Part shown: positions 10,728 to 22,140 of the stretch, piece after piece
How positions within the stretch are numbered: position 1 is the first letter of the stretch
Layout of the letters: each line of letters begins with the position of its first letter
Assembly (NCBI RefSeq): GCF_018128285.1
Contig: NZ_CP072380.1
Coordinates: forward strand, 248,001-312,000
Source of the DNA: Atopobium sp. oral taxon 416
Lineage (GTDB): Bacteria; Actinomycetota; Coriobacteriia; Coriobacteriales; Atopobiaceae
Length of the DNA: 64,000 bases
Direction of reading: 5' to 3'
Position numbers and translations under genes: made by a program
Notes under the pieces: generated by a model
The model's input: only the letters and a program-made list of their open reading frames with translations
What the model was told of the DNA's origin: nothing
The model's database searches: none

Positions 10728-14255
<3,528 letters not shown>

Positions 14256-14257
14256 CG

Positions 14258-17200
14258 GTGGCAGATTTCGATACCACAGATTTTGATGCGGTTAAGATCT
14301 CTCTCGCTTCTGCTGATACTATTCGCAGTTGGTCTCACGGTGAGGTTAAGAAACCTGAGACGATTAACTACCGTACCCTCAAGCCTGAGAAAGACGGACT
14401 GTTCTGCGAGAAGATTTTCGGTCCGACCAAGGACTGGGAATGCGCTTGCGGAAAATACAAAGGTATCCGCTTCAAAGGTATTGTGTGCGAGCGCTGCGGC
14501 GTTGAGGTAACGAGCGCGAAGGTCCGCCGTGAGCGGATGGGCCACATCGAGCTTGCCGCGCCGGTCAGCCACATCTGGTACTTCAAGAGCCCGACTTCAT
14601 TCCCCCTGTCCCGTCTTCTTGACATCAAGAGCAAGGACCTGGAGAAGGTTCTCTACTTCGCTTCCTACATCATCACTGATGTCGACACCCAGGCCCGTGA
14701 CACTGACGCCGCTGACCTGAAAGAGGAGCTCGCTGCTGACCTCGAAGAGCTCGACGCTGAGCGCGACGATCAGATCGACCGCGTCAAGGCGCAGGGCGCC
14801 GATCAGGGGGGCTCCGAGTTTGACGGCGTTGAGCCGCTCTCTGAGGATGAGATCAAGGCTGAGGTGGCTGACCTCGAAGCTGAGTATGAGGAGGAGAAGA
14901 AGCTCCGCCAGGATGCTTACAATCAGTTCATGCAGCTCGAGAAGCGCCAGCTCATCTCCGATGAGTCACTCTTCACCGAGATGAAGCGCTATTACTCCAT
15001 CTACTTCAAGGGTGGCATGGGTGCTGAGGCTATCCGTGATCTGCTCAAAGGGATTGACCTTCAGGAGGAGGCCAAGAAGCTCCGTGAGATTGTCAACAAC
15101 GAGAACTCCCAGAAGCAGAAGCGTGAGAAGGCTATCAAGCGCCTCGAGATCGTCGATGCCTTCATCAAGGGCGGCAACGATCCTGCGAACATGATTCTGG
15201 ATGTTATCCCGGTTATCCCGCCTGATCTGCGTCCTATGGTGCAGCTCGACGGTGGCCGCTTCGCAGCCTCTGACCTGAACGACCTCTATCGCCGTGTCAT
15301 CAACCGCAACAACCGTCTGAAGCGTCTGCTCTCTCTTGACGCTCCTGACATCATCGTCAACAACGAGAAGAGAATGCTGCAGGAGGCCGTCGACGCCCTG
15401 TTCGATAACGGTCGTCGTGGCCGCCCAGTCACCGGCCGTGGTGGCAGAGCGCTCAAGTCCCTCGCTGAGTCCCTCAAAGGCAAGCAAGGCCGCTTCCGTC
15501 AGAACCTGCTGGGCAAGCGTGTTGACTACTCCGGTCGCTCCGTCATCGTCACGGATCCGCAGCTCAAGATGCACCAGTGTGGTCTGCCGAAGACCATGGC
15601 GCTCGAGCTTTTCCGCCCGTTCGTGATGCGCCGTCTGGTGGAGCTTGGCAAGGTCGAGAACATCAAGGGTGCCAAGCGCGCAATCGACCGTCAGCAGCCG
15701 GCTGTCTGGGATGTGCTCGATGAGGTGATCAAGGACCGTCTGGTCCTCTTGAACCGTGCACCTACCCTGCACCGCCTGTCTATCCAGGCCTTTGAGCCGG
15801 TTCTGGTCGAAGGTGAGGCAATCCATCTGCACCCGCTGATCTGTGCACCGTTCAATGCAGACTTCGACGGTGACCAGATGTCCGTCCACGTGCCACTGTC
15901 TACCCAGGCGCAGACTGAGGCCCGTGTACTGATGCTTTCGACGAACAACCTGCGCTCACCGGCATCGGGCAAGGTGCTGACCGTTCCTTCACAGGACATG
16001 GTCTTCGGTGTCTACTATCTGACGACTGAGAAGAAAGGCGTCGCCGGGGAAGGCAATGTGTATGCCAACTTCGAGGATGCTGTCAATACGATCTCCAACG
16101 ATGTTGACCTGGATATGCAGGCGAAAGTTACCGTGCGTGTGTATCCGGCTGACGCTAACACCGAAGAGGGCGGCAGAAAGATCTTCCGCGTCAAGACCTC
16201 TGCGCACGACGTGCAGGATTACGACGTGACCGATGGCCCGATCCACTTCGAGACCACCGCTGGCCGCATTGTCTTCAACCGTTCCTGCCTGCCTGCGGAT
16301 TTCCCCTTCATCAACTACAAGATGGTCAAGAACGACATCTCACAGCTCGTCAACGAGTGCTGCGACCGCTATACCAACGCACAGGTCGAGCCGATCCTCG
16401 ACGCAATCAAGTCCATCGGCTTCCACTATGCGACGATCTCGGGACTTACCGTCTCCGTGTGGGATGCTGTCATCCCACCTGAGAAGCAGGAGATGCTCGA
16501 TGCCGCACAGGCGAAGGTCGACGAGATCAACGAGAACTACGAGGATGGCTTTCTGACCGAGGAGGAGCGCCACATCGAGGTCGTCAATGCGTGGACTGTC
16601 TGCACCGAGGCGCTCGGCACCAAGATGCTCGACGGCTTCAGCGAGGACAACCCAATCTACATGATGGCGGACTCCGGCGCTCGTGGTTCCAAGACCCAGT
16701 TGCGTCAGCTCGCCGGCATGCGTGGCCTGATGGCTGATATGTCCGGCGACACCATCGACCTGCCGATTAAGTCCAACTTCCGTGAGGGTCTGCAGCCGCT
16801 GGAGTACTTCATCTCCACCTACGGCGCCCGTAAGGGCCTGGTCGATACCGCGTCGCACACTTCTGATTCCGGTTATCTGACCCGTCGACTCGTCGATGTC
16901 GCCCAGGACGTTATCGTTCGCGAAGAGGACTGCGGCACCGATGAGGCCTGCACCTACAACATCTTCCTGCCCGGCACGAAGAACTTGAACACCGACCTGA
17001 TCGGTCGCTGTACCCTGCACGATGTGGTTGACCCGAAGACCGGTGAGGTCCTTATCAAGGCCGGCGACTACGTCACGAGCGCAGACGATCTGCAGAACTT
17101 GGCAGACCACGGCCTGAAGAAGGTTGAGCTCAGAGCGTTGCTCACCTGCAAAGCCAGGAACGGCGTCTGCCAGAAATGCTACGGCTGGGATCTTTCTACC

Positions 17201-18721
17201 CGTCGGCCAGTCAACATCGGCACCGCTGTCGGCGTTATCGCCGCGCAGTCCATCGGTGAGCCGGGTACTCAGCTGACCATGCGTACGATTCACTCCGGTG
17301 GCGTCGCAGGCGCCGAGGATATTACCCAGGGCCTGCCAACCGTTGCTCGTATGTTCGACGTTGTCGGCAACATCAACGAGAAGATCTTGGGCCGCGAGGC
17401 TGACCTGGCTCCCGCCTCTGGCACGCTGCGCATCACGACCGAGGGCACGCAGTACCTGATGCAGATCGTAGATTCCGACGATAACAGCCGAGTTTTGACT
17501 GAGAAGCGGATCCCGGCATCCGTACGCTTCATGCCTGAGATCGAGGACGGCGTACAGGTGCGCGCTGGCGAACAGCTGACCCGTGGCTTCGTCAACTTCA
17601 GAAAGCTTCGTAAGCTGACTGACATCGAGTCGACGATGCACACCTTCGTCAACTCCGTCAAGGAGGTCTACAGCTCCCAGGGCGTCGATCTGAACGACAA
17701 GCACATTGAGGTTATCGCTCGTCAGATGTTGCGCCGCGTCCAAGTTACCAACTCCGGTGACTCCGACTACCTGCTCGGCCAGTACGTTGACCGCTATGTC
17801 TTCGCAGACAAGGTCCGCGAGATCACGCTTGCGGGCGGTACGCCTCCTGAGGCAGAACCGGTTATTCTGGGTACGCTCAAGGTCGCGAGCTCCATTGACT
17901 CCTGGCTCTCCAGTGCCTCCTTCATCCGTACTGCGGGTGTACTTACCGAGGCTGCTATCAAAGGCGAGGTTGATCACCTCCAGGATCTGAAGTCCAACAT
18001 CATTGTTGGCAAGAAGATCCCGGCTGGCACCGGCCTTCCGGCTTACGAGGACGTCGAACTTACCTACAAGGGCAAGCGCGTTGAGCCGACGAGCCCGAAT
18101 GCCAAGACGCTGCCTGAGTGGGCTCCGGATGACTTGAAGGCCATTGAGGATAAGCTGCCGAAACATGAGCTCTCCTGGGTCGGCGACGACTACAACGGAT
18201 ACGGCGGAGTCTATTCAAAGAACGGGCGTACGCTCAGCTCTGAGGACGCAAAGCTCTATCTGTACGATGACCTCGGCGTGTCACAGCGCTGGACCAATAA
18301 GTTCTCCGAGGAGGGCATCGAGACGGTCGGTGACCTGATCGGCAAGACTGAGGATGATCTTCTGAGGATTGACGGTATCGGTGCAAAGGCTATCGAGGAG
18401 CTCCGCGACGGCCTGCAGAAGCGTGGCCTGCTCTATATCCTGGAGCCGGACGACAATGAGGCGGACTCTGAGGATCTGACCCAGCTGCTGAACATCGTGT
18501 TCTCACCGGATGCGGACAACGACGTGATGCTCGGCCAGGCGGCACCGTCGACTCACCAGTACGACGATGAGCTGATCGGCGGCCCGACTCAGACCAAGAA
18601 GGAGGACGACAAGAACTCTGATGTTATCAACGAGGACCTGTCTTCCTTGGACGATCTGCTGAGCGAAGTCGTGAAGAACGAGGCTGAGCACGATAAGGAA
18701 GAGAAGAGGAACAACCACTAA
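14258..18721 (+). CDS. rpoC: DNA-directed RNA polymerase subunit beta', with C-terminal alpha-CTD-like domain
   Basis: This is the 1487-residue beta' subunit, longer than most. The start is the GTG at 14258 after AAGGAG, two bases past rpoB. Visible features are the N-terminal zinc site (Cys 62, 64, 77, 80), an actinobacteria-type charged insertion (about residues 150-220), and the catalytic loop NADFDGDQ with Asp 535, 537 and 539. Further on are the second zinc-site cysteines ([11 protein letters not shown]) and the trigger-loop region ending [18 protein letters not shown]. Beyond the normal end, residues about 1336-1395 resemble the alpha C-terminal domain: Arg1344 and Asn1347 take the places of E. 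coli alpha R265 and N268, followed by [18 protein letters not shown]. An acidic tail with DELIGG closes the protein. Confidence 0.97.
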
Positions 18722-20659: not shown

Positions 20660-20850
20660 GATTTGAGCTTGCTTTGTCTGGTGGTTCTGTCGAAACCAGC
20701 ACGCCAGACAGAGACAAAGAGGTCGCACAGCGCAGCGATATCACACAAACACCGGGAGCCGAGCTCTACTTCTGCCTGCCCCATCACCTATGGCAAAAAG
20801 CGACTGTTGAAAAACACCTGCGGTCTTATCCGGGAGGTGGTCGAACCTGT
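20660..20850 (+). pseudogene. IS30 transposase C-terminal fragment
   Basis: The frame reading PDRDKEVAQRSDITQTPGAE then LYFCLPHHLWQKATVEK matches the C-terminal part of the IS30 copies (SLPDRGKQFAGHTGLTEALG then FYFCDPHHLWQK). No IS30 end is present on either side, so only a fragment survives. Confidence 0.7.
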
Positions 20851-20879
20851 AAGACAGGGAAAGCCTGATCTTTTCTGAA

Positions 20880-22140
20880 TCCCCTCCCGTCCGGGCAGCA
20901 CCATTGAAGGGCACGCAGCCTCGCAGACGATGCTCCTGTACCATTTGTGCCGGCGTATCGCAGCTAAACCCATAGTGGATCCGCTCTTCGTTGTACCACG
21001 TAACAAGCTTCTCGATGGTCGCCTTTAAGCTCTGGCGAGCGTACTGTACTCCTCCTGCCGCAGGCATTTGCCCTTGAGCGTCTTGAGCTATCTTTTCATG
21101 AGGGCGTTGTCCCTCCATTTGACCCTTTCTGTTCAGGCTCTGCTCCACATGCATAGAGGCGAGCAGCGACTGCGTACTTATAGAAGCCAAACATACCTCC
21201 CTACCCAAAGTTCATGATGGAGAGGGTCACGTGCTTTACGAAGGCCTGCCTGGCGCAGGCGACAATCTCTTTGGCACGCATGGTGTCAAAGGGCCTCCAG
21301 GAGACGATGTAGCGGTTGAACCGATCGATGACGGTCGCCAAGGTAGGTATGCCTTTCCTCCCTGTCTGGACGTTTGTGGAGCAGACCTGGTTGGAGAAGA
21401 GGACCTTCTTGCCCTTCAGCAGGTACGAGACCCACCTCGACTCCCTGCTGGGCGCCGAGAGCAGGCAGCAGGGGCAGATACCTATGAGCTTTCTCAGCCT
21501 GTAAGCGGGTGGCGCATACCTCACCCTGCCTCTTTAGCATCCTCGTGCCGAATGTGGGGCTCACGATATGGATGTGGTCTATCTCGGCCGCGCGCCGCTC
21601 GTCCTTTACAGACCATATATCCGCGCCACTGCCTTCTTCCCCTGCCATATCGCGCTAGGCACTTACCCTGCTCACGCCGGATAGCTTGCAGGAGAGCTGC
21701 CTGAAGAGGCCTTCCGGAAGCTCTCCTGTTGCCTCACGCCTTGGGGTTCTATCCGTTCCTGTCGCAAAACCGCTAAAGGGAAGTCGTGTTTCAACGGTAG
21801 AGCTGCCCAATCGGCGTCCGGGCTTTATCGTATCGCCTTCGCGCGGTCTTCTTTTGCTCTCTCGTCCTGTTGAATACGGTGTAGGCAGTGCCAAGCAGCT
21901 CGTCTTTTCGTGAGGGTGTAAGCGACGGGTTCACGTCTGTGCTTTACGGCAACCTGTAAGAGTGTCTTTTGCTTCTTCGCCACCTCCAGCGCGACTGCCA
22001 TCTTGAAGCTCGCACTGTATGCCTGTCTTTCTTATGGTCTTCTACATCCTTGCTGTACAGTCTGTGTCCTTTGGAGACATCTTTGCGGGATTTGAAAGGA
22101 TGGTCAAATCGATGTCTCAGAATCGCCAGCCATATCACTC
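20880..22140 (-). pseudogene. IS3-family transposase remnant
   Basis: On the minus strand OrfB fragments appear in order. IDHIHIVSPTFGTRMLKR is near 21540-21590, and NQVCSTNVQTGRKGIPTLAT plus VIDRFNRYIVSWRPFDTMRA are near 21260-21390. KATIEKLVTWYNEERIHYGF is near 20970-21030. The catalytic blocks are partly lost and the frame shifts repeatedly. The segment 21660-22140 upstream is probably degenerate OrfA (it contains words such as AYTVFNRTREQKK), but this part is weak. Confidence 0.65.

Follow-up and report, generated by a model that had tools for sequence, protein, structure and literature searches.

How the beta' subunit of a bacterial RNA polymerase comes to end in a domain resembling the C-terminal domain (CTD) of another subunit, alpha, and what such a domain would do there, is the question raised by the rpoC gene in a 64,000-nucleotide stretch (the window) of the Atopobium sp. 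oral taxon 416 genome, which is 3.0 Mb in a single contig (G000:C1), with the window at 248001-312000. The movable DNA- or activator-binding domains of the bacterial core polymerase are taken to sit on alpha, and omega, which binds beta', is convertible into an activator by fusion. The gene (14258..18721, forward strand, GTG start) was located in the list of open reading frames (ORFs) and encodes a 1487-residue protein matched by the NCBIfam models NF011498 (PRK14906; 2643.8 bits, residues 1-1481) and TIGR02386 (1563.3 bits, residues 12-1264), the end of the latter match placing that of the conserved beta' core at about residue 1264. There follow a linker of approximately 70 residues (1265-1336; 18050..18265, +), which varies more than its flanks in an alignment of 17 RpoC tails, and the alpha-CTD-like domain (residues 1337-1391; 18266..18430, +), delimited from the PF03118 match, the rpoA models NF003519 and TIGR02027, a gapless alignment and the predicted structure. 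An earlier note, made from the letters of the window alone, had proposed this fused domain and numbered its residues correctly, although the start it gave, 18262, lies one base before codon 1336, at 18263.

That the end of RpoC is a true homologue of the alpha-CTD is well supported by sequence comparison and structure prediction. PF03118 (RNA_pol_A_CTD) matches residues 1337-1387 with 35.6 bits against a curated cut-off of 23.8 (E 7.9e-9 for the whole protein, 1.4e-10 for the segment only) and, at E <= 0.01, all of the 20 Coriobacteriia RpoC-domain rows (18 families, one or two rows each) on which the residue counts given below are based. The alignment without gaps that the earlier note had read by eye is borne out over 55 residues, 22 of which are identical in the E. 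coli alpha-CTD and 23 in the alpha-CTD of the genome itself, and neither alignment score was attained by any of 2000 shuffled RpoC segments. The AlphaFold model of residues 1318-1405 (pLDDT 81.5) has the helix order of alpha-CTD and two helix-hairpin-helix motifs, in a predicted rather than a solved structure, and its top structural matches are solved alpha-CTDs (Foldseek, VIA). The alternative raised from the start, that this is a generic helix-hairpin-helix like that of the NusA tail, similar to alpha-CTD by convergence, has become very improbable because both HHH_5 (20.5 bits for the whole protein and 24.3 for the segment, cut-off 27) and the NusA C-terminal repeat model TIGR01954 (14.1 bits, cut-off 48.15) score below their cut-offs, with PF03118 15 bits above HHH_5 and alone in passing its own. 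It also has to face the 40 to 42% identity over the gapless 55 residues and a PDB sequence search in which the first 50 rows are RNA polymerase alpha chains (49 so named, 1i6v_A being entered just as 'RNA polymerase') and the first NusA appears only after them, with E 0.19. The window protein does not join an alpha N-terminal domain to the CTD in one chain: it is identified as RpoC by NF011498, and rpoA is a separate gene. The domain can already be flagged by annotation libraries, Pfam scoring it above its cut-off and the RpoC model PRK14906 spanning it.

A profile search with PF03118 (E <= 10) returned two matches in this genome, rpoA and rpoC. As to alpha, on which the earlier note had left the matter open, rpoA keeps a full CTD of its own (G000:C1:432423-432614). 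The RpoC domain is thus an addition, alpha keeping its own CTD, and it follows from this retention that the enzyme should hold three alpha-CTDs. Relocation of the domain from RpoA to RpoC is excluded by the same observation and by the presence of R265, N268 and C269 (E. coli alpha numbering) in 24/24 RpoA rows of the phylum. Nor is a recent copy of the genome's own rpoA CTD supported, since two label changes separate RpoC from RpoA CTDs, where shuffled labels need 17.7 on average. By contrast, an alpha-CTD-like module in an AAA ATPase (L086, family f5; families and loci bear numbers of our own) branches with the RpoA of that family (bootstrap 96, SH-aLRT 52), whereas the RpoC copies branch apart from RpoA. 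The tree of CTDs has 56 columns and little resolution; when left free it separates the f14 and f49 RpoC rows from the remaining ones and groups Thermus RpoA with RpoC rows, each time weakly, and a single RpoC clade is not rejected (p-AU, from the approximately unbiased test, 0.499). Most likely the RpoC domain is an old alpha-CTD homologue. Besides L086, the RpoC-CTD profile is matched by modules in other non-polymerase proteins, named by eye as a PglW-like kinase (L084) and two helix-turn-helix-like proteins (L087 and L088; one a 591-aa frame with a helix-turn-helix-like part, the other a 1137-aa frame with two copies). The 9.2-Mb genome G267 encodes, beside the usual rpoA, another RpoA-like protein that has a CTD (L085, 681-aa frame).

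The eight contacts of the E. coli 265 determinant are taken here to be R265, N268, C269, N294, G296, K298, S299 and E302. In common with the alpha-CTD of E. coli and M. smegmatis, the window RpoC domain has the PF03118 match, the predicted helix order and the residues R265, N268, G296, K298 and E302; it differs by sitting on beta' and by replacement of C269, N294, S299 and E261. The first helix carries Arg1344-Trp-Thr-Asn1347 (18287..18298, +), aligned with alpha R265 to N268, and the helix-hairpin-helix turn carries Gly1373-Ile-Gly1375-Ala-Lys1377-Ala-Ile-Glu-Glu1381 (18374..18400, +), spanning positions 294 (Gly for Asn), 296, 298, 299 (Ala for Ser) and 302. On checking the letters, Arg1344 (codon 18287-18289) and Asn1347 (18296-18298), as well as Gly1375, Lys1377 and Glu1381, were found as the earlier note had assigned them to R265, N268, G296, K298 and E302. 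Among the 20 rows the R265 position is Arg and those of G296 and E302 are Gly and Glu throughout, with Lys in 17 at K298 and in 16 at the position of C269. In an alignment of close relatives (A4), Arg1344 and Asn1347 are invariant in 25/25 rows and the mean column identity over the domain is 93%. The 261 determinant, which in alpha faces sigma, is absent (of D259 and E261, the former position is still acidic in 19/20 rows, but at 261 Glu is replaced by Gly in 19/20 and by Asp in the other), and Gly at 261 is compatible with membership of the alpha-CTD family because Thermus alpha-CTD also has it. To judge from these residues, the domain has lost the determinant that faces sigma, and its presumed DNA face has been remodelled, with its key Arg kept and a Lys gained. 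Thermus alpha-CTD (1doq) is both the best solved-sequence match among those listed (E 3.5e-8) and the first in Foldseek; it shares with the RpoC domain the GIG turn, R265, Gly at 261 and 294 and the loss of C269, and differs from it at 268 (His), 298 (Arg) and 299 (Ser).

The explanation that we favour as a whole, and consider probable without being assured of it, is that beta' of most Coriobacteriia ends in an alpha-CTD homologue on a linker of approximately 70 residues, making three such modules that include one likely to contact DNA away from sigma region 4. The domain would be present in the assembled enzyme, which would carry two alpha-CTD-type modules on alpha and one on beta'. A module tethered to beta' is what the earlier note had envisaged, and sequence and predicted fold now support an alpha-CTD homologue there. 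Contact with DNA, likely but not safe, would be made by the first helix through Arg1344, together with Asn1347 and probably Lys1348, and by Gly1375 and Lys1377 of the helix-hairpin-helix turn. Because the acidic residue that faces sigma region 4 is missing (E261 being Gly), the module would not work at the UP-element site next to sigma but elsewhere, either on more distal upstream DNA or by anchoring the enzyme to DNA without help from sigma, although its place along the DNA is speculative. The linker is also longer than the approximately 25 residues given for M. smegmatis alpha in PMC5511352.

A number of observations weigh against contact with DNA. Three of the eight E. coli contact positions are replaced in the window RpoC (C269 by Lys, N294 by Gly and S299 by Ala), and in the 20 rows position 294 is always Gly, position 299 is Ala in 19 and position 269 is never Cys. 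The position of N268 is Asn in just 9 (Thr in 6, Lys in 3, Asp and Arg in 1 each), so that, of the Arg/Asn pair singled out by the earlier note, the Arg has proved constant in Coriobacteriia and the Asn has not; outside the class even the Arg is lost in f49, whose RpoC has Tyr at 265, while f38 retains both residues. In PMC5511352, N294 is described as water-bridged to R265 and DNA, Thermus alpha-CTD as being without some DNA-binding residues, and Thermus polymerase as unstimulated by the UP element. Acidic residues are also more numerous in the RpoC domain (13 acidic and 8 basic of 55 residues) than in the alpha-CTDs compared (9 and 8 in E. coli; 10 and 8 of 56 in the RpoA of the same genome), and no RpoC chain is found among the best 60 of 102 solved-sequence matches. 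Of positions 285-288, which we take to belong to the 287 determinant for regulator contacts, 285 is Thr or Ser in 18/20 and 288 is acidic in 19/20, as would also fit a role facing proteins.

The replacements at 294, 299 and 269, the variability at 268, the loss of Arg in f49 and the conservation in kind at 285 and 288 are what the main rival explanation draws on, namely that the alpha-CTD homologue has become a protein-docking module, bound by regulators, NusA/NusG or the leading ribosome, and leaves DNA untouched. It can also point to the known docking of regulators by alpha-CTDs, complexes with Spx and CAP being among the matched structures, and to the near-complete conservation of the domain in close relatives, which suits a protein face too. 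However, the columns invariant over the 20 rows are the Arg of R265, three Gly, the Glu of E302 and one Leu, positions 286 and 287 vary, and the new Lys at 269 brings charge to the presumed DNA face; docking alone is accordingly a serious competitor that we nonetheless judge unlikely. A purely structural role, by which the tail would steady the C-terminus of beta' and omega or assist polymerase folding without any regulatory function, appears improbable. The domain comes, as we presume, after the omega-binding end of beta', and the omega (rpoZ) candidate of this genome (G000:C1:1609067-1609246, L189) scores 22.4 bits, below the Pfam cut-off of 26 that is passed in 14/14 control genomes, both of which would suit such a role; against it stand the variable linker of approximately 70 residues that separates core and domain, and the Cys/His repeats borne in place of the domain by those polymerases of f7, f18 and f19 that were read.

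The distribution of the domain was surveyed with the RpoC-domain profile. Within the order of the window organism the RpoC-type domain was found at E <= 1e-20, a threshold of which the RpoA CTDs of the class fall short (approximately 1e-14 to 1e-16), in 171/177 genomes and in 138/139 of those of good quality; the six genomes without it comprise five that are less than 80% complete and one that is 90% complete, and among the match rows listed a dozen lie in frames shorter than 1100 aa and the others in frames of at least 1416 aa. In the rest of the class (80 of 83 available genomes) it occurs in 41/80, a count that includes G119, with an incomplete match at the edge of a contig, and G101, with its match in a 327-aa frame. 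The 39 class genomes without it belong to f7 (25), f18 (8), f19 (1) and f16, f23 and f24 (one each, in uninformative assemblies with zero rpoC core matches), while the remaining two, the incomplete genomes G041 (59% complete) and G139 (73%, with a 41-aa frame containing part of a match), are from families in which the domain does occur. Conservation across Coriobacteriia, about which the earlier note had asked, holds for the order and for much of the class and fails in f7, f18 and f19. Named relatives of the domain in GTDB species genomes (533 pattern matches, 395 of which encode a relative, the best 80 being used) are from Olsenella, Atopobium, Thermophilibacter, Tractidigestivibacter, Parafannyhessea and uncultured Atopobiaceae and Coriobacteriaceae.

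The domain is not confined to Coriobacteriia, since at least two further families of Actinomycetota, f49 and f38, carry it in RpoC. In the survey of the phylum (396 genomes), 43 genomes (4 of the class) were hand-picked for inspection from those with at least two matches, so that the RpoC cases represent a lower bound: the domain was present in 3/3 genomes of f49 and in at least 6/15 sampled genomes of f38, the other nine having one or no match. The frames of these three f49 and six f38 proteins measure 1356-1464 aa and contain the polymerase motif NADFDGDQM, and PF03118 scored above its cut-off in the one f49 and the one f38 RpoC scanned (50.4 and 43.0 bits, respectively). A second, foreign-looking rpoC (L083, G040:C24; 1315-aa frame on a 6.8-kb contig) was also noticed and is probably assembly contamination.

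In f7, f18 and f19, all eight RpoC C-termini read (L016, L017, L020, L023, L027, L029, L031 and L032) lack the alpha-CTD-like domain and terminate in zinc-finger-type Cys/His repeats. Each tail has two copies of the form C-x9-C-x8/9-(Y/F)C-x2-H (with a stricter pattern, two copies in seven tails and one in L027), and DUF5763 was above its cut-off in both tails scanned, one of which also matched zf-TRM13_CCCH. In two rpoC-core trees, with 30/36 and 29/36 loci (in the former L082 is tagged 'none' although its tail has the domain), the Cys/His rows fall among CTD-bearing rows, and replacement of the CTD by Cys/His repeats is therefore the simplest reading. Because L031 (f7) pairs in both trees with the CTD-bearing L028 (f11), away from the other f7 rows, one or two replacements are both possible: the starred branches of the 30-locus tree force two changes, and a single Cys/His clade is not rejected in the 29-locus tree (p-AU 0.403).

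By taking these tails together, it is tentatively proposed, as a conjecture somewhat short of probable, that the C-terminus of beta' has served in evolution as a socket into which different nucleic-acid-binding modules can be fitted, either the alpha-CTD homologue (most Coriobacteriia families and two other families of Actinomycetota) or paired zinc-type Cys/His repeats (f7, f18 and f19), the former giving an enzyme with three alpha-CTDs of which the third would be on DNA independently of sigma region 4. If so, it would represent a promoter or DNA-anchoring input that, to our knowledge, is seen in no known polymerase. A third alpha-CTD on beta', with zinc-type repeats in its place in sister families, would change the interpretation of promoter strength and of regulator input in these bacteria of gut and mouth; as one domain of a core subunit, it is directly testable by deletion or mutation. 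Lineage-bound additions to the large subunits, such as the actinobacterial beta'i1, are described in the available parts of PMC5511352 and PMC11515920, and are insertions within subunits, whereas in this RpoC a domain known from a different subunit is fused to the C-terminus. An alpha-CTD on beta' is not mentioned in those parts of the two papers, and the figures of PMC11515920 mask terminal residues beyond the shared core. No published description of it was found in literature searches, which did not cover articles behind a subscription, Iyer et al. 2004 among them.

Downstream of the domain, RpoC ends in an acidic tail (18431..18718, +; 27 acidic and 7 basic among 96 residues), recognized from its composition and from the alignment of 17 tails, in which the short motifs DLSQLLNMVFSPD, LIGG and VINEDL-SLDDLLSQV are kept; a Pfam scan of the tail gave no family above its cut-off. 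A structure model of the whole tail region (341 residues, 17 sequences) had a mean pLDDT of 45.6 and is poor outside the domain. Upstream of the linker, the usual beta' stretch GITKASLAT-SFLSAASFQETT is altered at residues 1205-1234 (17870-17959), which we take to be the switch 1 region. The alteration is shared by L012, recurs in nearly the same form in the 16 named relatives of the 17-tail alignment, and contrasts with the usual GITKASLAT form kept in 27 other rows of the 29-locus rpoC-core tree, f8 (L039) also departing from it; in that tree the branch carrying the window RpoC and L012 is 2.11 changes per column long. Directly upstream of rpoC lies an ORF of 1175 aa (10728..14255, +), presumably rpoB, encoding beta, as named from its sequence. 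Further along the window, an ORF at 20741-21208 on the reverse strand resembles in part, by eye, the end of an integrase-type transposase.
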